A stretch of DNA of 64,000 nt from Edaphobacter lichenicola. Its GTDB lineage: Bacteria; Acidobacteriota; Terriglobia; Terriglobales; Acidobacteriaceae. The position numbers and the translations under genes were made by a program. Under the pieces are notes generated by a model. That model searched no databases, was not told where the DNA came from, and worked only from the letters and a program-made list of their open reading frames with translations. Shown here piece by piece: positions 12,396-24,498 of the stretch (positions are counted from its first letter, which is position 1; every line of letters begins with the position of its first letter). The DNA lies in assembly GCF_025264645.1 (NCBI RefSeq), contig NZ_CP073696.1, forward strand, positions 1,674,001-1,738,000, written 5' to 3'.

Positions 12396-12627
12396 GAAAA
12401 CCTCTCGATAAAGATCAGAACAATTCAATTCCGAGTTTAGGCCATCCTGTTCCTGCGTGCAATGGACGAACTGTTTTTGTATCGAATATTTGAATAGAAA
12501 GAAATCTCTTGTTCATAAACTACGGGAAAGCATGTGGATTGGCTTGTGCGATGTCACCGGTTTTGAACAGGGAGAACGAACGACGCCACTCTTTATGAGT
12601 GCCAGTACGGTATTCTGCGGTTCTGCG

Positions 12628-15294
12628 ATGACGAACGAGACGATAACGAATTTGGCGAATGAAGCAGCTGGATTGACACCGGTGATGCGTCAATATTTTG
12701 CGGCCAAAGAGCAATATCCAGACTGCCTGATGTTCTGCAGGATCGGCGACTTCTATGAGCTGTTCTATGAGGACGCAATCCTAGTCTCAAAGGAGTTGCA
12801 ACTGACTCTGACGGCTCGCGATAGAGAAAAGAAACAGCCGATGTGCGGAGTTCCATATCACGCGGCGGAGGCGTATCTGCAGCGATTGCTGCGCAAAGGC
12901 TACAAGATCGCCCTGTGCGAACAGATGGAAGACCCGAAGCAGACAAAGACGATCGTGCGACGGGAGGTGACCAGGGTGCTGACGCCTGGGACATCGCTTG
13001 ATCCGACCTTAGGGGCGGAACAAAGTAATTATTTAGCAAGTGTGGCGTTGCTCGGAGCGGGGCCAACGATGGTCTGTGGCTTGGCGCTGGTGGATCTCTC
13101 AACGGGGGAGTTTAAAGCGACTGAATTCAGTGGACAGGGTGGTTGGGCGAGTGTCGTCGATGAGTTGGGACGCGTGCGCCCTGTGGAGTTACTCTATGGA
13201 AACGGATTGCTGGGCGGAGTGAATCTTGCGGGCGAAGATGAGACGGCAGCCGGACTAGACGCGATCCGAACCAAGACTGCGGTTGAGGAGTGGGTGTTTA
13301 CCGCAGAGTATGCGATACCGCTGGTACGAAACCATTTCAAAGTGCACTCGCTGGATGGAATGGGACTGGGCGGTCATGAGGCTGCGGCAGTCGCTGCAGG
13401 AGCGCTTCTGCACTACATGCGCGCGACCAAGCAAGGCGGATTGGAACATATTGATGGGCTGCGATTTTACGAGCGATCGACTTGTCTCGAACTTGACGCG
13501 GTGAGTGTGAGGAACCTCGAGTTGGTGGAACCGCTATTTTCTGGTGAGTCGGTGCAGACGACGTTGTTCTACACGATGGACGCCTGCTGCACACCGATGG
13601 GAAAGCGCCTGCTGCGAGCGTCGCTGCTGAGGCCGGCGAGTGAGTTGGCGGAGATCGAGGCGCGACTCGATGCGGTTGGCGAAGCTGCAAAGGATCTGCG
13701 ACGACGTGAGGGCTTACGGCGGTCGATGGATGGACTTCTTGATCTAGAGAGGCTTCTAGGAAGAGTGGCGTTGGATTCGGCCGGACCAAGAGAAGTCATG
13801 GCATTGGCGAATACGTTGGGCTGCGTCCCGGGAGTCGTGGAGGCAGTGAATATGTTTGAAGCGGCGCGATGGCGGGAGTTATCTGCGAGCGTTGATCCGT
13901 TGGAAGATCTGCACGAGATGATTGTCAGGACGATCTCGGATGAGCCACCAGTGTCACTGGGTGACGGCGGGACGATTCGCGAAGGTGTCGATCCAGAGTT
14001 GGACGAGCTTCGAGAGTTGAGCCGGAGCGGACGGCAGGCTCTCGCCGCTATTGAGGAGCGGGAGCGGGAGAGAACAGGAATCGGCTCACTGAAGGTGCGG
14101 TTCAACAGCGTCTTTGGCTACTACCTTGAAGTGACCAAGGCGAATGCGAAGGCAGTTCCGGCTGACTATGAGCGCAAACAGACGTTAGTGAATGCCGAAC
14201 GGTTTACGACTCCGGAACTGAAAGAGTATGAGACGAAGATTCTCACCGCACAAGAACGGAGCGGAGAGATCGAACGCAGAATATTCGCCGAGTTGAGGAG
14301 GCAGTTGCTGGATGCCGCAGGCCGAATGCGTGAGACGGCTCGGAAGATCGCAGAGATCGATCTGCTTGGCTGCTTCGCACACCTTGCAGCCCTGCGTGGG
14401 TGGGTCAGGCCGCAGGTAGAGAGTTCGGGAGTACTTGAGTTTGCGCAGGCTCGTCATCCGGTCGTCGAGAGGCGGCTCGAAGAGTCGGGCGGCGGACGGT
14501 TCGTGCCTAACTCGGTCCATGTGAACGCTGACACAGGACCTGCCGTGTTGCTGATCACGGGACCGAACATGGGAGGTAAGAGCACTTACCTGCGAATGGC
14601 GGCACTCCTGGTTGTGATGGCGCAGATCGGTTGTTTTGTTCCCGCTGAAACGATGCGATTGGGGCTCGTGGACCGTATCTATACGCGGATTGGGGCGAGC
14701 GACAACGTAGCGCGGGGACGGTCCACATTTATGGTCGAGATGACCGAGACGGCAGCAATTTTGAACACTGCGACAAACCGGTCTCTGGTGCTGCTCGATG
14801 AGATGGGGCGAGGCACGGCGACCTATGATGGCCTGAGTCTGGCATGGGCCACGGTCGAACATCTCCATGACCGCATTGGTGCACGGACATTGTTTGCAAC
14901 GCACTATCATGAGCTGACGTTGTTGTCTGAGCGGCTGGCCCGACTTACGAATCTGCGCGTGACGGTTAAAGAGACCTCCGGGGGTATTGTTTTTTTGCAT
15001 ACAGTTGAAGCTGGACCGGCAAGCAAGAGTTACGGAATCGAGGTGGCGAAGTTAGCTGGCTTGCCCGCAGGCGTTATCGCACGGGCGCGGGAGGTATTGA
15101 AGGTGCATGAGCGAGCGGAGACACAGCAGGTCAGAGAGGCTTCGCCAATCCAGACAGTACAGATGACGATGTTTACACCGTTGTCGCAGAGAATTGTGGA
15201 TCGGCTGGCAGAGGCGGATGTCGACGGGCTGACACCAAGGGAAGCGTTGAATTTGCTTGCCGAGCTACAGAGGGAGTTGAGGGGCAGTGCGTAG
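12628..15294 (+). CDS. mutS: DNA mismatch repair protein MutS
   Basis: An 888-residue mismatch-recognition ATPase. The N-terminal mismatch-binding domain shows FCRIGDFYELFYEDA with the Phe-x-Glu intercalating motif; the connector, lever and clamp domains follow; the ATPase has GPNMGGKST (Walker A), then TFMVEM, LLDEMGRGT (Walker B) and ATHYHEL. The C-terminal helix-turn-helix region is present. I chose ATG 12628 (MTNETITN...) because conserved MutS homology begins there (LTPVMRQYF); the frame is open to 12457, with other Met codons at 12535 and 12595 that lack clear ribosome-binding sites. It is divergent from pqqA. Confidence 0.97.
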   Translation: MTNETITNLANEAAGLTPVMRQYFAAKEQYPDCLMFCRIGDFYELFYEDAILVSKELQLTLTARDREKKQPMCGVPYHAAEAYLQRLLRKGYKIALCEQMEDPKQTKTIVRREVTRVLTPGTSLDPTLGAEQSNYLASVALLGAGPTMVCGLALVDLSTGEFKATEFSGQGGWASVVDELGRVRPVELLYGNGLLGGVNLAGEDETAAGLDAIRTKTAVEEWVFTAEYAIPLVRNHFKVHSLDGMGLGGHEAAAVAAGALLHYMRATKQGGLEHIDGLRFYERSTCLELDAVSVRNLELVEPLFSGESVQTTLFYTMDACCTPMGKRLLRASLLRPASELAEIEARLDAVGEAAKDLRRREGLRRSMDGLLDLERLLGRVALDSAGPREVMALANTLGCVPGVVEAVNMFEAARWRELSASVDPLEDLHEMIVRTISDEPPVSLGDGGTIREGVDPELDELRELSRSGRQALAAIEERERERTGIGSLKVRFNSVFGYYLEVTKANAKAVPADYERKQTLVNAERFTTPELKEYETKILTAQERSGEIERRIFAELRRQLLDAAGRMRETARKIAEIDLLGCFAHLAALRGWVRPQVESSGVLEFAQARHPVVERRLEESGGGRFVPNSVHVNADTGPAVLLITGPNMGGKSTYLRMAALLVVMAQIGCFVPAETMRLGLVDRIYTRIGASDNVARGRSTFMVEMTETAAILNTATNRSLVLLDEMGRGTATYDGLSLAWATVEHLHDRIGARTLFATHYHELTLLSERLARLTNLRVTVKETSGGIVFLHTVEAGPASKSYGIEVAKLAGLPAGVIARAREVLKVHERAETQQVREASPIQTVQMTMFTPLSQRIVDRLAEADVDGLTPREALNLLAELQRELRGSA

Positions 15295-15344
15295 CCGCTC
15301 TCACAGAGCTAGCAAAGATTCGTCGAGAACTATCGGAGGTTGAG

Positions 15345-16538
15345 TTGGCTAAGTCGATGGTGGTGGCAGGGGTGATGAGTGGAACCTCGGTGGATGGAGT
15401 TGATGTCGCGATTTGCAGGGTCTCCCCGGCGATAGATGCAAGTTCAACACCACGCGTGAAGCTGTTTGGGCATGTGGGCTCGGCATATCCAAAGGCAGTA
15501 CGGGCTGCAGTGCTCCAGGCAATGGATGCAAATGCGATCTCGGTTGCCGAGCTGTCAAGGTTAAATTGGCGACTAGGCGAGATCTATGCGGATGCGATTG
15601 AGAAGGCACAGAGTCAGCTTGGCCTGAAAGCGGCGCTGGTGGGGTGCCATGGACAGACGGTGTATCACCAGGGAGCGGTGGAAAAATATCTAGGCAAGCC
15701 CCTTCGAACAACCTGGCAAATAGGGGAAGCGGCAGTGATCGCGGAGCGATTGCGAGTGCCGGTCGTGAGCGATCTTCGACCTGCCGATATAGCTGCCGGT
15801 GGACAGGGCGCGCCTCTTGTACCGATGCTCGATTACTGCATGTTTCGGTCGGCGAAGGTGACCCGGGTGTTGCAGAATCTCGGCGGAATTGGAAATTTGA
15901 CCGCGATTCCCGCGGAGGGTGGGGTAGATGGCATCATGGCGTTCGATACGGGGCCTGGAAATATGGTGATCGACGCTTGCATGAGGCGATTGTATGAGCG
16001 AGAGTTTGATCGAGGCGGAGCGGTGGCGCGCACCGGGCAGGTGGTGCCGGGAGTTGTGGAGCAGTTGCTCGCAACAGAGTACTTCACTTCCCTGCCTCCA
16101 AAATCGTGTGGCAGAGAGCAATTTGGAGAGAGATTTGTTTCCCAGTTTATCGCGATGTGCCGAAATGCCGCTCGTGATGTGCGGGATGAGGATGTGATTG
16201 CGACAGCTACCGCGTTGACCTCCGCTTCGATTGTGGATGCCTACCGCAGATTTGTGTGGAGACACGTGGGGCAGGCGGCCCCATTGTCGCGAGTGGAGTT
16301 TGTGGCGGCAGGAGGTGGAACCAAGAATGGCACCCTGATGGGAATGTTGCGCGATGGCCTTGAACCTCTCGGCGTAAAGCTCCGCTTGATGGACGAGTTC
16401 GGAGTGCCTGCCCAGGCGAAAGAAGCGATAGCGTTTGCGCTATTGGCCTGGTTGAGCTGGAATGGATTGCCTGGGAATGTGCCAGCGGCAACCGGCGCAC
16501 AGCGCGCTGTGGTGCTGGGGAAGGTTAGCTACGGATGA
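15345..16538 (+). CDS. anmK: Anhydro-N-acetylmuramic acid kinase
   Basis: A 397-residue kinase of murein recycling: it opens and phosphorylates 1,6-anhydro-MurNAc to MurNAc-6-phosphate. The signature GVMSGTSVDGVD is at the N-terminus, with GCHGQTV, GGQGAPLVP, NLGGIGNLT and FDTGPGNM later, all AnmK landmarks. The TTG at 15345 is favoured as start because GGAGG lies five bases upstream; an ATG at 15357 would put that site 17 bases away. It follows mutS by 50 bp, probably co-transcribed, and overlaps the next gene by four bases. Confidence 0.95.
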   Translation: MAKSMVVAGVMSGTSVDGVDVAICRVSPAIDASSTPRVKLFGHVGSAYPKAVRAAVLQAMDANAISVAELSRLNWRLGEIYADAIEKAQSQLGLKAALVGCHGQTVYHQGAVEKYLGKPLRTTWQIGEAAVIAERLRVPVVSDLRPADIAAGGQGAPLVPMLDYCMFRSAKVTRVLQNLGGIGNLTAIPAEGGVDGIMAFDTGPGNMVIDACMRRLYEREFDRGGAVARTGQVVPGVVEQLLATEYFTSLPPKSCGREQFGERFVSQFIAMCRNAARDVRDEDVIATATALTSASIVDAYRRFVWRHVGQAAPLSRVEFVAAGGGTKNGTLMGMLRDGLEPLGVKLRLMDEFGVPAQAKEAIAFALLAWLSWNGLPGNVPAATGAQRAVVLGKVSYG

Positions 16539-18154
16539 GTCTTGCGATGGAGCGGACAAGCGTAGTGTATGATAGTGAAATTTTAAGAAACTTGCAAAGA
16601 CTAGAGCGTCAAATCTGCGGCGGCTTGATAGTACTGCTTTGCCTGAGTTTGAGTGGATGTTCCCGCCGGGTCGATGATCCATCTACGGTCGTCATGATTC
16701 TCGAAAGCAGTCCAAATAATCTGGATCTTCGGCAAGGGACGGACGCCCAGTCGGAGCGAGTGGGTGGGCTCATCTTCGACGCGCTCGTGAAGAAGGATGA
16801 GCATTACGAGTTACAACCTTGGCTAGCTACGAGTTGGGATCAACCGGATGCGCTGACATGGGTGTTTCATCTACGAGACGGGGTACAGTTCCACGATGGA
16901 AGGCCCCTTGAGGCGCCTGATGTGGCCTATACCATTGAGAGCCTCCTTGACGGCTCACTCGTGACGGCAAAGTCTGGGAGTTTTGCGACCGTTGATCGGG
17001 CGGAGGCAAAGGATCGGCTAACGGTCGTAGTCCATATGAGGCGACCCGATGCGGGTCTGCTGTTCAATGTAAGCGATGGATTGTTTGGAGTAGTGCCTCG
17101 GGGCAGCGGAAGAGATTTCGGGTTGCGCCCAATTGGGTCTGGGCCGTTCAAGTTTGTGAGTGCAGTGCAGGATAAGGAAGTAATCCTGGAGCAAAATCAC
17201 CACTACTGGTCAATAGCACCCGAGGTGCCTGCAGATGCACAAAGAATCGAGCGAGTACGGTTCGAGGTCGTGCCGGATGCGATAACGAGCGCGCTGGAGT
17301 TGAAGAAGGGGTCCGCGGATCTTGCCAGCAACGTGGTGACTTTGGATATGGTGCACACGTTGCAGAGCGCGGCGAATCTACAGGTGGAATCGGGCGTGGG
17401 TTCTCCGGTAGTTTATGTGACATTCAATGTTACAGATCCAGTGTTGAAGGATAAGAGAGTACGTCAGGCAGTGGCTTGTGCGATTGATCGGCACGCGATT
17501 GTAGACGCGATCTGGCGAGGGCAAGCAAGGCTGGCTGACACACTGCTGCCGATAGGGCACTGGGCTGCGGCTACAGATGCAGAGTTGGGGCAATATCCCC
17601 ATGACGTCGGCAGGGCGCAAAGACTCCTCGAGGAGGCTGGCTTTCCTGCTGGCAAAGACGGGGTTAGGTTGCGGCTGACTCTGAAGACGAGCACGGACGA
17701 GACGACTCGACTGATGGCAGCGGTGCTGCAACAACAGTTGCGTGCAGCAGGGATTCGGCTGGAGATTCGATCGGCCGAGTTTGGGACGTTCTATGCCGAC
17801 GTGACCAAAGGTGCGTTTCAGATCTATGCGCTACGGTGGATCGGAAGCAACGAAGATCCGGATATCTTTCGGTATGCGTACGGTTCGGGCAGCTTTCCGC
17901 CGAAGGGAGGAAATCGTGGTCGGTATTCCAACCCACAGGTGGATGCGCTGCTCGCAGATGCTGCGGGTTCAACGGTCCGAGCAGTGAGAAAGGCGGACTA
18001 TGTTAAGGTACAGAAGATTTTGGCGGAAGAGTTACCAGGAATACCGCTTTGGTATCCGAATAACGAAGTGATTCACACTCGCCATGTGCAAGGAGTTGTA
18101 GCGAGGGGTGCAGGAAGCTTTGATTTTTTGCGCGAGGCGTGGGTGGTGCGGTAG
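16535..18154 (+). CDS. ABC transporter substrate-binding lipoprotein (SBP_bac_5, peptide/nickel type)
   Basis: A 539-residue extracellular solute-binding protein of the oligopeptide family: LQPWLATSWDQPD, FHLRDGVQFHDGRP, DVAYTIESL, and VTFNVTDPVLKDKRVRQA are conserved family stretches. A hydrophobic segment ending LSLSGC is a lipobox, so the protein should be anchored to a membrane. The chosen ATG overlaps the anmK stop as ATGA, implying coupled translation; that leaves about 30 residues before the hydrophobic segment, longer than usual for a signal peptide. No permease or ATPase genes are adjacent. The link to anmK hints at uptake of cell-wall peptides, but this is inference. Confidence 0.9.
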   Translation: MSLAMERTSVVYDSEILRNLQRLERQICGGLIVLLCLSLSGCSRRVDDPSTVVMILESSPNNLDLRQGTDAQSERVGGLIFDALVKKDEHYELQPWLATSWDQPDALTWVFHLRDGVQFHDGRPLEAPDVAYTIESLLDGSLVTAKSGSFATVDRAEAKDRLTVVVHMRRPDAGLLFNVSDGLFGVVPRGSGRDFGLRPIGSGPFKFVSAVQDKEVILEQNHHYWSIAPEVPADAQRIERVRFEVVPDAITSALELKKGSADLASNVVTLDMVHTLQSAANLQVESGVGSPVVYVTFNVTDPVLKDKRVRQAVACAIDRHAIVDAIWRGQARLADTLLPIGHWAAATDAELGQYPHDVGRAQRLLEEAGFPAGKDGVRLRLTLKTSTDETTRLMAAVLQQQLRAAGIRLEIRSAEFGTFYADVTKGAFQIYALRWIGSNEDPDIFRYAYGSGSFPPKGGNRGRYSNPQVDALLADAAGSTVRAVRKADYVKVQKILAEELPGIPLWYPNNEVIHTRHVQGVVARGAGSFDFLREAWVVR

Positions 18155-18268
18155 TACGATCTCATGCGTTGGTTGCCACTACGGATTCACACACAACGAT
18201 GATAGATAGGAATATCAGCATTCTTGTAGCGAGTTTGCATGAGGCCTCCCCCCTTGCAAGTCGGACGG

Positions 18269-18294
18269 AAACGGCATCGAAGCTGATGCCGTTT
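18269..18294. terminator. Hairpin between convergent genes
   Basis: Ten-bp perfect stem AAACGGCATC/GATGCCGTTT with a six-base loop, overlapping the stop codon of the minus-strand pilin-like gene. No T tract is visible, so its role as a terminator is likely but unproven. Confidence 0.5.
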
Positions 18295-18862
18295 ACATGG
18301 CCTGCGCCACTATAAAAAGAACTCCCGTATACGTAGCAGCAGGCAGTTGCGGCAAGCTCGACAGGTTGATGCTCAGGCTCAGGTTGTCCGTGCGGCTGGC
18401 GTCGCCGAGGCTTAGGATCGAAGATATGGTGAAGAGCTGAAGACTGCTCCCGGTCCCAAAGGGACTTGTCTGAGTAAATGGAGTAAAAGTAGTGGGGAGC
18501 CCAGTTGGGACCTGCCCGCTGACGCATGAAGACGGTATAGAAGTGATGGGCGCACTGCTGCTGAGGGCTGTCGCGGAACTACCGAAAAATGCATACTCGT
18601 TAAGTGTGGATACAAGCGCTAATCCGCTCCACGAAGTTGTCACTGCAATCGGATTCGATCCGGGGGCAACTCCACTTGGAACCAGATTAAAGTTTATCGT
18701 GGCTGGCATTGCCGTTACCGTGATGCTGCCCAGGATTATGCCACGAGGCGCGGGCCGATGCGTGCCAACCGACAACACCTGCGCCTGTGCGGTACCAAAC
18801 CATACGCACCCCGCAATCCACGCCAGCAGCAGATGTCGTCTCCGTTGATTGAGCAGAATCAT
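18293..18862 (-). CDS. Secreted pilin/spore-coat-U-like protein, second copy
   Basis: A 189-residue protein with a signal peptide (ending AQAQ), then a Ser/Thr/Gly-rich beta-structured domain. It is a paralogue of the first gene of this operon (21241-21816): both share ITVTAMPATINFNL/VSATPTTVNFAL, a TTSWS/TTTWS strand, the IPSS...V.G...GLPTT(F/Y)T.FTQT stretch, and an ending (A)ATYTG.(L/M)...AQA(M/L). That layout resembles small fimbrial or spore-coat-U (Csu-type) subunits, but no clear family signature allows certainty. It starts one base after the barrel gene's stop, so it is certainly in the same operon. Confidence 0.75.
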   Translation of the reverse strand: MILLNQRRRHLLLAWIAGCVWFGTAQAQVLSVGTHRPAPRGIILGSITVTAMPATINFNLVPSGVAPGSNPIAVTTSWSGLALVSTLNEYAFFGSSATALSSSAPITSIPSSCVSGQVPTGLPTTFTPFTQTSPFGTGSSLQLFTISSILSLGDASRTDNLSLSINLSSLPQLPAATYTGVLFIVAQAM

Positions 18863-18863
18863 C

Positions 18864-20474
18864 CTAACTTCTGCCCCGTGGAGTCTTCTCCACTACAACG
18901 GTCATGACTGTCTGATCTTCGCTTGCACTGCTGGTCGCCTCTGCCGGAGCGGACACGACGCGATAGCTTCCACCATTCAAAAATTGATCCACCAGTACCG
19001 TAAGGGGATGCGTGCGCGGTTTGCGCTCTCTCACGTAGAAGTACCCATCCGAGTCGGTATAAACCGAAAGCTGATCGACTAAAAGCGCGGCGCCCATTAC
19101 GGGTTGTCCCGATAAGTCGAGCACTCTTCCGCGAACCATCATGCCACCCATCGAATAGTGCTGATAAGCGGCGGTTTCCATGCCTTGTTGGCGCGACACT
19201 GCACCTTCCGCCTCAGCCGTGTACAGTAACTGTCCGTCGGCAGCGACAAACGTTCCACCATTCAATGCGAGCTTTCCAAAAAGATGAATCTGAGCATTCA
19301 GGATCAGGGCTTGCTCGAAGGGAGACTCCACCCTGGCAGGAACATAATATGTCTGATAGTCCGCGCTCAACGTCGCCAGGTTGGACAAAAACGATCCCCC
19401 GAAGCCAAAGGTATTCTGCCCGTTCGATGTGTTGACAGACTGTGATAACACCCAGCGAGGGCTCAGCGTCTCTTGAACAGTAGAGATGAGCTCATCTGTA
19501 CTGTTTGAACCCTCCGGCCGGCTAACGAGATAACTTGCGCCAACATGGACTCGCGGTGTTACATCCCGACTTGCTGAGTAGACCATCGCGACATCGCTAC
19601 GACCGTCGTAGGTCGACTGAAATAACATCGCGGACATCGCGACACCCACGACCTGCAGACTGGCTGAACCTTGATTCACTGTACTGCGCAGATTATTTTG
19701 TGACTCGTAAACCGGCGTCAGATAGTTCTGCCTTCCTGCCGTAAGAGTGAGATACGGCGTCGGCCTCACCGTTAGCAGGATATTTTCGCGAGCGGGCTCC
19801 GAGGAGATTGGAGTCTGCACATCCGCACGCCTGAACTGACTCCCCGATTCGTAATAGGCCGCCTTGAGGTCAATTCGTTGCCGGTTGATTGATAGACTCG
19901 CGGCCGCGTAAGGCTGGTAGGATCCCATTCCTCCTGAGAACGCGACCTGTGTCCCTCCGCCTGAGTTCCATTCCATGCTGTACAGGGCAGTCACCTGTCT
20001 TGCCACAATGACATGTGCCGACCCCGTCCATTGTGGTGCGACTTTTCCAGTTACAAATAGAATGCCTGCCGGCGTCGCAGTGCGAGCGCCATTGAAGAAC
20101 GGACTATTGAACGTGTTTGACGTGGCTCCTGCAAATGCGTAAAGATTTGCGTCGTCCACTTTCGTTGTTACTCCCGCGCCGACTCCAGTCAAATAGTGAC
20201 CGCTGTCAAAGATATCCGTCGGAAGATTGAAAGGAATGTTGTCGATGCCCAATGTGTATCTGGCCCGTTCCGTTGCCTTCACTAGCTGCGCTCCACCATA
20301 GAACTGCCCCCCCACCGTACCCGCCCCCACCGATGTTGTATAGGTCCCGTTGCGGATGCTCACCGTTCCACCCTGCGACTGGTAGAGCGACGAGGTACCT
20401 CCGCTTAACTCGACGATCTGGGCGTTAAGAAAATCTCCGCCCACAAAGACTAAAACCAGAACGAGAACCCTCAC
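18864..20474 (-). CDS. Outer-membrane beta-barrel protein with C-terminal regulatory-like plug domain, possible short usher
   Basis: A 536-residue protein with a signal peptide (ending FLNAQ). Residues about 30-430 alternate polar and hydrophobic residues with many Gly, Tyr and Ser, typical of an outer-membrane barrel. Residues about 450-510 (VRGRVLDLSGQPVMGAALLVDQ...YTDSDGYFYVRE) resemble a carboxypeptidase-regulatory-like or usher C-terminal beta-sandwich. The start is GTG 20474, preceded by a strong GAGGAGGAGG. It lies between a chaperone-like gene and a pilin-like gene, the place of an usher, but classical ushers have about 800 residues, so this would be a reduced form. It could instead be an unrelated porin or assembly factor. 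Confidence 0.7.
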   Translation of the reverse strand: MRVLVLVLVFVGGDFLNAQIVELSGGTSSLYQSQGGTVSIRNGTYTTSVGAGTVGGQFYGGAQLVKATERARYTLGIDNIPFNLPTDIFDSGHYLTGVGAGVTTKVDDANLYAFAGATSNTFNSPFFNGARTATPAGILFVTGKVAPQWTGSAHVIVARQVTALYSMEWNSGGGTQVAFSGGMGSYQPYAAASLSINRQRIDLKAAYYESGSQFRRADVQTPISSEPARENILLTVRPTPYLTLTAGRQNYLTPVYESQNNLRSTVNQGSASLQVVGVAMSAMLFQSTYDGRSDVAMVYSASRDVTPRVHVGASYLVSRPEGSNSTDELISTVQETLSPRWVLSQSVNTSNGQNTFGFGGSFLSNLATLSADYQTYYVPARVESPFEQALILNAQIHLFGKLALNGGTFVAADGQLLYTAEAEGAVSRQQGMETAAYQHYSMGGMMVRGRVLDLSGQPVMGAALLVDQLSVYTDSDGYFYVRERKPRTHPLTVLVDQFLNGGSYRVVSAPAEATSSASEDQTVMTVVVEKTPRGRS

Positions 20475-20501
20475 CGCGACCTCCTCCTCGCTGTCTCGTT
20501 C

Positions 20502-21188
20502 TTACTGTGTGCTGCCTGTAATCGGCCGCTTGAGGTCGAAGTGCTCAAAACGAAAGTCGATCTCGGTGGGAGACTGACTCTCAGGCCAATCCATCTCTAT
20601 GTGTCTCGATCCCCCGGGCAACAAGGGGAAACCGGCAAGATCCCCGTTCGCATGATCTCCAGTAGCTTTGACCGATTGAACTCTGGCGAGAGCGTCACCA
20701 TCATTTTCGATATCGCAGCTCAACCGGCGGGTCCCGACACTGTACGAGAGATTCTTTACCTGGACTTCACTCGCCGTCAGCGGCTGCTTCTGATAGAGAT
20801 AGACCGTATGAGGCAGCATGATTCGCACATCTAAACCGTCACTGTGCCGCGGGTTTGAAAATGTGGCGTACACGGTAAACCATGCGGGCAGTTTATCCGC
20901 CGTGGCTTTGTAAAAGACGTAGTAGGTCTGTTTTGGTTGAAGCCGGACACTCATCGACGAAAGCTGAACGTGGATGTTACTGTCAAGCGGTCGAAACTGC
21001 CCCTTCCCTTCCGGAGTAATGCTGAAGCTTTTCGGCTCCAGTATCACAACCATCGGGGACAAGGTGTTATTGGTAAGCATCAGTTTTCCATCAGCTTTAC
21101 CTTTGTATTCAACGATGACTGGTTGAACAGTCTGTGCCAACACGGACGCACCAAGCCATAATGTGCCTATGAGAACTCGAAAAAACAT
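20502..21188 (-). CDS. Periplasmic pilus-chaperone-like protein
   Basis: A 228-residue protein with a signal peptide (ending VLAQ). Its first domain has the beta-sandwich layout of PapD-type chaperones: a strand of small and hydrophobic residues (KLMLTNNTLSPMVVILEPKSF), SVRLQPKQTYYVFYKA where chaperones have the pattern R-hydrophobic-x-P-G-Q, then LPAWFTVYATF, and IMLPHTVYLYQKQ before the interdomain link. The second domain is shorter. Identity to classical chaperones looks low and the assignment leans on gene order: it sits between a pilin-like subunit gene and a beta-barrel gene on the same strand. Confidence 0.6.
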   Translation of the reverse strand: MFFRVLIGTLWLGASVLAQTVQPVIVEYKGKADGKLMLTNNTLSPMVVILEPKSFSITPEGKGQFRPLDSNIHVQLSSMSVRLQPKQTYYVFYKATADKLPAWFTVYATFSNPRHSDGLDVRIMLPHTVYLYQKQPLTASEVQVKNLSYSVGTRRLSCDIENDGDALARVQSVKATGDHANGDLAGFPLLPGGSRHIEMDWPESQSPTEIDFRFEHFDLKRPITGSTQ

Positions 21189-21240
21189 GACGTCTCCCTA
21201 GTCCGTCCGAAAAGACGGAATGTCTGGCAAACCCTCTTGT

Positions 21241-21816
21241 CTAGAGGGCCTGTGCTTGAAGGGTCATGGTTCCCGTATAGGTTGCAGCAGCAAGCGTCAG
21301 CCCGGTGGTGTTGATCTCCAGGAGCAGACTGTCGACGCGAACGAAGGACCGGTTAAGCGCAGTCAGGGGAACGGTATAGATTTGCAGGCCTGCACCTGCG
21401 GTACCGAGAGCATCTGTCTGCGTAAATGCGGTGTAAGTCGTCGGCAGGCCGAGCAGATCTTCGCCAAGCACTGCCGACGAAGGGATGTTCGATACCGGTG
21501 GTCCTGCGTAAGTCAGGGCAGCAGTGGGGCTCGACAGTGAAGCAACCAGAATCACGTTGGCACGGCCAACGGCTAGTGACCAGGTTGTTGTGACAACGAC
21601 AGGAACGCTGCCCAGCGCGGTGCCAGGGACAGTGGGGAGTGCGAAGTTGACTGTGGTTGGGGTGGCTGAAACGCCAATGGATTCGGCGAGGGTTGCGTTG
21701 AGGGTGACGCTGGCTGTGTTCGAGTTAAGCTGAGCGAAGGCAAGCTGCGAACCAGGGATGAGTGTAAGAGCGACAAACAGAATTTTGAAGAGTGAAGTTG
21801 CTTTATTGCTCGGCAT
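21241..21816 (-). CDS. Secreted pilin/spore-coat-U-like protein, first gene of the operon
   Basis: A 191-residue protein with a signal peptide (hydrophobic segment ending LAFAQ). The mature part is almost all beta-type: SVTLNATLAESIGVSATPTTVNFALP, VVVTTTWSL, then an ending ATYTGTMTLQAQAL that resembles the last strand of fimbrial subunits. It is homologous to the fourth gene of the operon (18293-18862), suggesting duplication and a division into major and tip or minor subunit. The chaperone-like gene follows 52 bp downstream. No cysteine is present in the mature domain, unlike type 1 pilins. Confidence 0.75.
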   Translation of the reverse strand: MPSNKATSLFKILFVALTLIPGSQLAFAQLNSNTASVTLNATLAESIGVSATPTTVNFALPTVPGTALGSVPVVVTTTWSLAVGRANVILVASLSSPTAALTYAGPPVSNIPSSAVLGEDLLGLPTTYTAFTQTDALGTAGAGLQIYTVPLTALNRSFVRVDSLLLEINTTGLTLAAATYTGTMTLQAQAL

Positions 21817-22128
21817 AAGAAGGGCTCCGGAGATAATGTGGATTCGGCATCGTGCCGCGATCTATTTTTTGGTGACTAAGCTCCTATTGCAGTACTGCTG
21901 AAACGCAGGTATTGGATGAATTGAAAATGCCCAAGACGAATCCTGGCAGAATAAATCAACGAAACGTTGGATCGGTGAAACCATCGAACAATGCTTCAAT
22001 GCAACGAAGCATAGACTTTTCAGCGGCAATTTGGATACAACTTTTGGTGAGGTCTCCGGTACTTTCCCATTTTGATCCACCAAGTTGCTCCTTCGGGAAC
22101 GTTATGAATACGATTTCTGCCTCGGCTT

Positions 22129-23265
22129 TCAATACTCCGCAATGACTTCGCTAACGTAATCCTCGACAACGAACCGTTGCAGTTCCACGCCGCGCTCGTC
22201 CTCAATCATCCAGACATGCTGAAAAAAAGTCTTTTCTATGATGCGGTTATAAGGACCCAACTCTCCCATCGGATGAAACGCGCCATCGGGATCCATCCAG
22301 AAAACTCTGATCCTTTGGTCGCTGTTATTGATCAGTTGAAGTTCAGCCTGCCTCGAACTAACGCGCGACAGCGCCAGCTTCGAGACGCTGCGCGCACGAA
22401 TTGCTTCGATTGCAATAGGGCGCTTCCTTTGCTGGTAGAGAAGATCGAGCAGCGCAAAACCGGCTATATCCTCTTTACGCTTTGACTGCGCCTCGGCGGT
22501 ATCCGGACCGAAATACCACATCGAGAGTTCAGCCCAGTAGTCTTCTGGACTCCTCGCCGCACGGGATCCCCTCCAACGCCCGGCATTTACCGACAGTCCG
22601 AACTGAGCCTCGATCAGCTTTCGAATCTCTTCATCCAAGCCATAGTTCATCAATGCAATCGCGAACTCGCGCATGCAGAGATCGGTGGTGTCATCACCCC
22701 GGTGCGAGGCAGCTGACAGCAGACTTTCTTCTCCGCAGGCACTGTAAATACCAGACTCTGCGCGACCGCCGTCCGGGTTGCTCTTCTGTGTTGTCGCACC
22801 GCCATCGTTAATCGGGTGTCGCCCGTGATTCTCAGGGAGCTCCAAAAGACCTTGTCCTTTGCCAAGAAGATGCAGCTCCACTCCACGTTGTCTAAGATTT
22901 TGTTTCGCCACGTCCATCGAAGCCAGCATGGTTTGCATCCGCATACATCCGTCTACTAGCGCACGATCCTCTACCAACGCGGAGCCACGTATAAAGACTC
23001 CGTCGCAATCAATCGCTTTCGTATAAAAGCCGAAGTATGGCGGATCAAAGCGCTCGATCCCGGGCATCCCCGTCCCAATCTGAGCCCGTGCCGCACCCGC
23101 CATACCGTACGATAAGACAAACAGAGCTGTGGCCGGGATTCGAAACTTGAAGAATCTCTGTTCAGCGAAACCTGGGCACATCGTGGTTGAGTGGGCGCTT
23201 TCTCTGAGGTCACTCCAGCGCTGCCAGCATAGCCGACAATTACCGAAAGTAAAAGCTTTCTTCAA
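22129..23265 (-). CDS. Secreted protein with VHL-like C-terminal beta domain and probable degenerate metallopeptidase region
   Basis: A 378-residue protein. Residues about 285-372 (LQLINNSDQRIRVFWMDPDGAF...LGPYNRIIEKTFFQHVWMIEDERG) match the pattern of the von Hippel-Lindau beta-domain fold: a strand with asparagines, V-x-W-x-D-x-x-G, a T-F-x-x-H-x-W core. The central part (DCDGVFIRGSALVEDRAL...WAELSMWYFG) resembles a family I recall with an HEFAH-type zinc site, but here the corresponding stretch reads MREFAIALMNYG, lacking both histidines, so catalysis is doubtful. The TTG start has AGGTGG seven bases upstream; the hydrophobic signal-like segment begins only about 43 residues in, and a start at 23181 is possible. 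Confidence 0.65.
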   Translation of the reverse strand: MKKAFTFGNCRLCWQRWSDLRESAHSTTMCPGFAEQRFFKFRIPATALFVLSYGMAGAARAQIGTGMPGIERFDPPYFGFYTKAIDCDGVFIRGSALVEDRALVDGCMRMQTMLASMDVAKQNLRQRGVELHLLGKGQGLLELPENHGRHPINDGGATTQKSNPDGGRAESGIYSACGEESLLSAASHRGDDTTDLCMREFAIALMNYGLDEEIRKLIEAQFGLSVNAGRWRGSRAARSPEDYWAELSMWYFGPDTAEAQSKRKEDIAGFALLDLLYQQRKRPIAIEAIRARSVSKLALSRVSSRQAELQLINNSDQRIRVFWMDPDGAFHPMGELGPYNRIIEKTFFQHVWMIEDERGVELQRFVVEDYVSEVIAEY

Positions 23266-23440
23266 AAATGTTCCACCTTAGATAACGCTGAAGATCTGAT
23301 ATCGCCCCCATTCTTTCGTGTAGCAGGTTCTTTGGATTGGAAGAAGAAATCCACACACATCAGAGCAGCAAACTGATGTCGGAACCTGATCTTCGGCAGA
23401 TTTTGGCTGCGACAAAAAGATGAGCCTGGATGTCAGCCTG

Positions 23441-23781
23441 TCACTGCATCATCGCGGCGCGGTGCGTCAGATACTTCGCGTGATCGATAGGCCACAGCCA
23501 TGTTGTTGCGCTTCATGTGAATGAGCTGAATTCGATATGCGCACCATCGAATCCATTCTCATTTAAGAATCGACGATGCCACCCCACGGAAACATGTCCG
23601 GTCATGCGGTCTTGAGAGCCGAGCCGATAAAGTGCGTGCAATATCGTGTTGTTGCCCATGGCTTATTTTTATTATTGGCTCCGGGGAACACTAATCTCCC
23701 TTTACCCGTGAGCAGTTTGCGTGCCCGCGATACTTCCATGGCGTGACGTGTCAAGGGAACCATATGGACTTTAGAAGGTGC
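23441..23781 (-). pseudogene. Tyrosine recombinase (P4-type integrase) C-terminal pseudogene
   Basis: Hand translation of the minus strand in shifting frames gives KVHMVPLTRHAMEV, LLTGKGRLVFPG, NNTILHALYRLG, RMTGH, FLNENGF, QLIHMKRNNMAVAY and DHAKYLTHRAAMMQ in that order. This is the conserved order of the catalytic half of P4-type integrases (VPLSxQA..., LTGxGxxVFP, NNTxxxALxRLG, TGHGFR, LNExGF, AYNxAEYLxxRxxMMQ). At least three frame changes break it, the region with the catalytic Arg is garbled and the N-terminal half is missing. The fragment abuts the 3' end of tRNA-Gln, the normal position of such an integrase. Confidence 0.85.
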
Positions 23782-23786
23782 GTAGC

Positions 23787-23860
23787 TGGTTGCCCCCCAG
23801 GGATTCGAACCCCGATTGATCGGTTCAGAGCCGACTGTTCTACCATTGAACTAGGGGGCA
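23787..23860 (-). tRNA. tRNA-Gln (anticodon CTG)
   Basis: On the minus strand: acceptor TGCCCCC pairs with GGGGGCA, discriminator A and encoded CCA; the anticodon arm GTCGG-CTCTGAA-CCGAT holds anticodon CTG (reads CAG, glutamine); the T-arm is CGGGG-TTCGAAT-CCCTG. D-arm GTTC/GAAC is present. All stems pair, with ordinary wobbles, so the gene looks intact. The integrase pseudogene starts six bases past its 3' end, so this tRNA gene served as an integration site. Confidence 0.96.
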
Positions 23861-23994
23861 AAGTGCGTAGCGTGGTGCGCTCTGCGTCGCGAACGGGTGC
23901 TCGCTGACTGCCTTCTAAGAGTGTACGAGGTGAGGAAGATAAGGTCAACGTTTGGACCGCTACCACGTGTTCCGTTCTAGGTAGAATTGTGCCT

Positions 23995-24498
23995 ATGACG
24001 ATGTTGCATGATGTGATTGCTCGTGACTTTCTGGATGTTTCCTGTCGCAGGTTGGATCAGATGACTGAGTGCCTTGAGGTCTGCCTGCGCAAGTTGAGTG
24101 ATGAACAGGTTTGGCAGCGCCAGGGAGCACATGAAAATGCTGTCGGAAATCTTGTTTTGCATCTTTGCGGAAATGCGCGGCAGTGGCTCATCCACGGAGT
24201 GGGTGGGGCGACTGACATCAGAGTGAGGGATGCGGAGTTCAGTGCCGATGGAGGCAAAAGTGGAGCGGAGTTGATCGCTTTGTTCCGAAGTACGATGGCT
24301 GAAGCTAAGAGCGCGATCTCTGCTGTGTCGGCTGAGCGGATGGCCGAGAGAATAACTCCGCAGGGACGCGATGTGAGTGTGCTCGAGGCGATCTATCAGG
24401 TGGTTGGGCATGTGCAACAGCATGTGGGCCAGATTATTTTGCTGACCAAGCAGATGACAGCGACGGATCTTGATCTGACGATGCCTCGTCCCCGGTGA
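23995..24498 (+). CDS. DinB/DUF1572-family protein
   Basis: A 167-residue four-helix-bundle protein of the DinB-like superfamily. Metal-ligand histidines are in positions expected for the family: NLVLHLCGN in helix 2 and HVQQHVGQI in helix 4. These proteins include thiol S-transferases (YfiT/BSH-type) and proteins of unknown function; the activity here cannot be named. ATG 23995 was chosen; a GTG six bases upstream is in frame and AGGTAG precedes both. It diverges from the tRNA-Gln gene and is probably a single-gene unit. Confidence 0.85.
   Translation: MTMLHDVIARDFLDVSCRRLDQMTECLEVCLRKLSDEQVWQRQGAHENAVGNLVLHLCGNARQWLIHGVGGATDIRVRDAEFSADGGKSGAELIALFRSTMAEAKSAISAVSAERMAERITPQGRDVSVLEAIYQVVGHVQQHVGQIILLTKQMTATDLDLTMPRPR

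Follow-up and report, generated by a model that had tools for sequence, protein, structure and literature searches.

Remnant of a tRNA-Gln-integrated element with a decayed P4-type integrase at an integration hotspot in Edaphobacter lichenicola

The tRNA-Gln locus and its integrase remnant

We analyzed a 64-kb window (the whole stretch of 64,000 nucleotides) of the Edaphobacter lichenicola genome, in which a tRNA-Gln gene and an adjoining insert lie between two backbone genes. The features of the locus are the following:

16535-18154, plus strand: SBP_bac_5 solute-binding protein, left backbone gene
18155-23786: insert that separates the two backbone genes; congeners lack it or have different DNA here
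18293-18862, minus strand: 189-aa subunit-like protein, the second of its kind, sharing 39% identity with the product of 21241-21816
18864-20474, minus strand: 536-aa protein that matches CarboxypepD_reg weakly, outer-membrane- or usher-like by eye only
20502-21188, minus strand: 228-aa protein without a database match, chaperone-like by eye only
21241-21816, minus strand: 191-aa secreted subunit-like protein, gene one of the cluster
22129-23265, minus strand: 378-aa open reading frame with an uncertain start codon and a weak match to the VHL beta domain; its homologue (L104:6039-7127) lies beside the same cluster in G029
23387-23769, minus strand: pseudogene of a P4-type integrase that retains the C-terminal third (about residues 280-404 of 408), with five frameshifts and one stop, by frameshift-aware alignment
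23770-23786, minus strand: 17-nt spacer between the tRNA and the start of the integrase homology, where about 1 kb has been deleted
23787-23806, minus strand: att core of 20 bp, equal to the tRNA 3' end, sole copy in its own genome
23787-23860, minus strand: tRNA-Gln, anticodon CTG, CCA encoded, the integration target, by ARAGORN and sequence
23989-24498, plus strand: DUF1572/DinB-like protein, right backbone gene

The integrase remnant lies directly past the tRNA 3' end and runs in the same direction as the tRNA. We compared it with ten integrases by frameshift-aware local alignment, and its best partner was the protein of G077 (Granulicella sp. L60), with a score of 322 and 81 of 122 aligned residues identical, as against a mean of 31.7 (sd 3.8, max 46) for 120 dinucleotide shuffles and a best score of 52 among 60 random pieces of the window. 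The homology is to the catalytic domain, and Pfam confirms the domains of the G077 integrase used as reference. An earlier note on this DNA had read an integrase pseudogene from motifs in shifted frames; these motifs are indeed present, in three shifted frames, the alignment score bears the reading out, and the tblastn search that the note suggested also found integrase similarity (linked E = 4.9e-24).

Some details of that reading had to be revised. The homology starts 17 nt after the CCA end and not six bases from it. In G077 the same codon lies about 1,037 nt past the CCA, indicating that about 1.0 kb is missing here, namely the leader and residues 1-279 of 408; the N-terminus is therefore gone as claimed, but the loss comes to about two thirds of the protein rather than half. 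Five frameshifts fall between 23658 and 23486 and an in-frame stop lies near 23443, past which the integrase similarity is weak, so that the earlier count of at least three frameshifts was right as to their presence and incomplete as to their number. Considering that the N-terminal Arm-DNA-bind_3 domain is deleted and the full open frame is broken, the remnant is a pseudogene of the P4-type family and not a working member.

Changes specific to the remnant reach 13% at codon position 1 and 7% at position 2. None of nine control integrases has as many, which fits decay that followed a functional period. The third positions are still the most changed, so much of the divergence is older than the decay. 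The three in-frame pieces, scanned singly against NCBIfam and Pfam, gave no match, and the remnant site was also absent from the hits of a genome scan with PF00589; we take these misses to mean that the pieces are too short for the NCBIfam, Pfam and PF00589 models. We also noticed that the string GCTACGCAC flanks the tRNA on both sides (23861-23873 and 23772-23783), a pair that is perhaps part of the deletion junction, or chance.

The tRNA-Gln site across the genus

The far-side backbone, consisting of mutS, an anmK-like gene and the solute-binding gene (12457-18154), is conserved in relatives. We measured the distance from the solute-binding gene to tRNA-Gln in the 32 genomes in which the two share a contig, keep the same orientation to each other and lie within 200 kb. 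Results showed an empty or nearly empty site in six of them (34-191 bp) and a distance of 1.2-198 kb in 26, which are the genome of the window (5.6 kb) and 25 congeners. The two ranges identify the locus as an integration hotspot and 18155-23786 as an insert, which base composition does not mark out. This count excludes G014 and G074 (tRNA inverted), G012, G023, G031 and G075 (a distance of over 500 kb), any genome that has the two genes on different contigs or is missing one of them, and G084 and G085, which were not in the solute-binding gene search. The tRNA-Gln of G014 (L032) and G074 (L087) is inverted relative to the backbone genes, which places an inversion breakpoint at the hotspot.

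We oriented the 58 genus loci on tRNA-Gln and looked for integrase homology within 3 kb of it: 21 loci have it past the 3' end of the tRNA, and none (0/58) before the 5' end. Of the 21, nine are open over their full length, two carry a single lesion (a stop in G025, a frameshift in G031) and ten are pieces, the window included; L056 and L057 matched only one of the ten integrase queries. As the contig breaks off near the tRNA in some of the 58 (e.g. L051, L057, L058, L061), 21 is a lower bound. The intact congener copies lie about 200-255 bp beyond the same tRNA-Gln.

The att core is GAATCCCTGGGGGGCAACCA, the 20-bp 3' end of tRNA-Gln. A second copy (attR) was found in 5 of the 12 genomes searched (G005, G029, G069, G070 and G080), and a similar element flank precedes it in all five. 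These relatives agree with the proposal of the earlier note that a P4-type integrase acted at tRNA-Gln, since they carry an intact integrase at the same tRNA, some with the 20-bp attL/attR repeat, and the six empty or nearly empty sites likewise support the former element that it placed here. On the contrary, the second partial copy of the tRNA 3' end that it asked for did not appear: a genome search found the att core in a single copy, giving no direct repeat for attR, and neither a second partial tRNA 3' end nor the right-end motif of the element was found in the 64-kb window. As attR is missing, the far end of the element is undefined, and with a single core copy we term the locus a remnant and not an island with defined ends. 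In G070, the attR copy (L101:5741-5760) is followed by the N-terminal piece of a second integrase, an arrangement of tandem islands at the same tRNA.

We also asked how the related integrases are distributed over tRNA genes. In a protein search of 60 genomes, in which matches of 330 residues or more were counted as near-complete and compared by hand with tRNA positions, all 11 near-complete matches at 67% identity or more were at tRNA-Gln, versus none of the 21 at 56% or less. A tRNA scan of named genomes took in 40 of 80 fetched loci. Of 13 loci at 66% identity or more, all but that of Silvibacterium bohemicum are preceded by tRNA-Gln(ctg) at about 200-255 nt, and five of these loci duplicate genomes of the genus set; among 27 more distant loci, nine are without a tRNA and 18 have one (Ser 5, Met 3, Asn 3, Gln 3 with one ctg and two ttg, and Leu, Cys, Trp and Arg 1 each). 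By these tallies the clade is largely a tRNA-Gln specialist. Its intact members possess the Arm-DNA-bind_3, Phage_int_M and Phage_integrase domains, and the remnant nests inside it, its exact placement being weakly supported. In Silvibacterium bohemicum, an att-like core with 2 mismatches (L117:4508-4527) lies 0.3 kb downstream of the related integrase, with no tRNA upstream.

Inserted genes and proposed history

The insert contains five sizeable open reading frames, all on the minus strand. Those at 18293-21816 form a cluster of four whose gene order is kept in several congeners. The 536-aa gene occurs in 11 of the 60 genus genomes, its own included, and in the other ten it is never at tRNA-Gln and sits in varying places. 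The cluster (homologues in L063-L073, L104 and L105) encodes secreted-looking proteins without a known family: a PHROGs search returned nothing for it, Pfam gave weak domain matches at most, PDB profile searches with three of the proteins found no convincing relative (the best, a SusC-homologue fragment matched by the 536-aa protein, had an E of 0.023), and single-sequence folds were poor (mean pLDDT 46.5 and 32.1).

DNA identity to G077 is 88% over 18267-22181, as against 75-77% for the backbone from mutS to the solute-binding gene, and the G077 copy of the cluster sits elsewhere in its genome. This difference points to horizontal exchange with the G077 lineage. Versus G029 there is no such difference, cluster and backbone both being at about 74-75%. 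At 2.3 kb beyond the G077 copy of the cluster lie an IS91-type transposase and a tyrosine integrase (L105:14480-15972), a pair that is a possible vehicle of the cluster.

We are confident that the locus is the remnant of an element integrated at tRNA-Gln, whose integrase gene decayed while the insert stayed as 5.6 kb of probably fixed DNA. Judging from the anatomy of the relatives, a P4-type tyrosine integrase would have recombined attP with the 20-bp 3' end of tRNA-Gln(CTG), presumably restoring the tRNA and leaving the integrase gene beside it. A deletion of about 1 kb, itself visible in the sequence, removed the integrase leader and the N-terminal two thirds; the remainder decayed through frameshifts and a stop, and the far att copy is gone, both being apparent from the present state of the locus. 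As integrase and attR are lost, the segment should be unable to exit by its own means, and the five open genes sit in an insert that is probably fixed. The identity contrast shows that at least four genes (18293-21816) were exchanged horizontally within the genus, and they most likely arrived as island cargo at the hotspot. The earlier note had taken the DNA between 18 and 23 kb for cargo: that it is inserted (18155-23786) and that its genes were horizontally exchanged both hold, but that the cluster was cargo of the element of this very integrase, though most likely, is weaker than the rest, attR being gone and no intact element carrying the cluster having been found.

The stub and the cluster may instead be unrelated, an old element having left the integrase stub and the cluster having come later by another route, e.g. 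an IS91-type transposon. We regard this as possible if rather doubtful. It would fit the placing of the cluster away from this site in each of the ten other genomes with the 536-aa gene, as well as the IS91-type transposase and integrase near the G077 copy; yet no transposase open reading frame was identified in 18155-23786, the gap holds only the stub and cluster genes, and inserts at the hotspot are the rule in the genus. It is very improbable that the two backbone genes ancestrally enclosed the cluster and that relatives later lost it: its presence in 11 of 60 genus genomes could be read that way, but none of the ten others has it at the tRNA-Gln site, the backbone genes nearly abut in six genomes, and the identity of the cluster to G077 is far above that of the backbone. 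A sequencing artefact in an intact integrase is hardly credible, even though the remnant is known from assembled sequence only, as two thirds of the gene are deleted, five shifts and a stop fall within about 220 bp, and codon positions 1 and 2 have changed faster than in intact relatives.

Within the preferred reading of an integrated element with a decayed integrase, a more speculative and, in our opinion, unlikely extension is that the insert is a domesticated island, which lost its integrase and attR and in which selection kept the horizontally exchanged cluster to build an undescribed acidobacterial surface fibre or coat, the tRNA-Gln hotspot being one of several landing places. The putative parts, whose likeness was judged by eye, would be the two subunit-like proteins, the chaperone-like protein and the outer-membrane-like protein.

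Comparison with known systems

Hotspots at tRNA genes and islands of the P4 type are textbook matter. The find is of an ordinary kind, though well documented: an island remnant at a tRNA integration hotspot, the underlying principle of which is already well known. What it offers is one tRNA gene at 58 loci of one genus, with intact, single-lesion, decayed and empty states together with attL/attR repeats; such a range could allow island gain, decay and loss in Acidobacteria to be traced on the species tree.

The remnant shares with the P4-type integrases of tRNA-targeting islands (Arm-DNA-bind_3, Phage_int_M, Phage_integrase) its homology, its site past the tRNA 3' end, its direction and an att core equal to the tRNA 3' end. 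It differs from them as a two-thirds-deleted pseudogene, from a clade specialised on tRNA-Gln(CTG).

Among the papers that literature searches on these bacteria listed, none describes a tRNA-Gln hotspot, judged by title and abstract. The relevant passages on Acidobacteria treat integrases, prophages and candidate islands near tRNAs, without a tRNA-Gln hotspot (PMC5900883, PMC3174227). The candidate islands of Solibacter usitatus, predicted by composition, resemble our case in lying near the tRNA genes of an acidobacterium and in containing mobile genes that have decayed, and those passages mention neither a tRNA-Gln site nor att repeats or empty sites (PMC3174227). Integration hotspots at tRNAs in Sinorhizobium meliloti (PMC11476347) and at the Asn tDNAs of Klebsiella (PMC4891358) are similar in that a single tRNA gene carries different islands across related genomes; in contrast, the present hotspot belongs to another phylum and another tRNA, and its tRNA-Gln site spans from empty to 76 kb (in one case 198 kb) across species.
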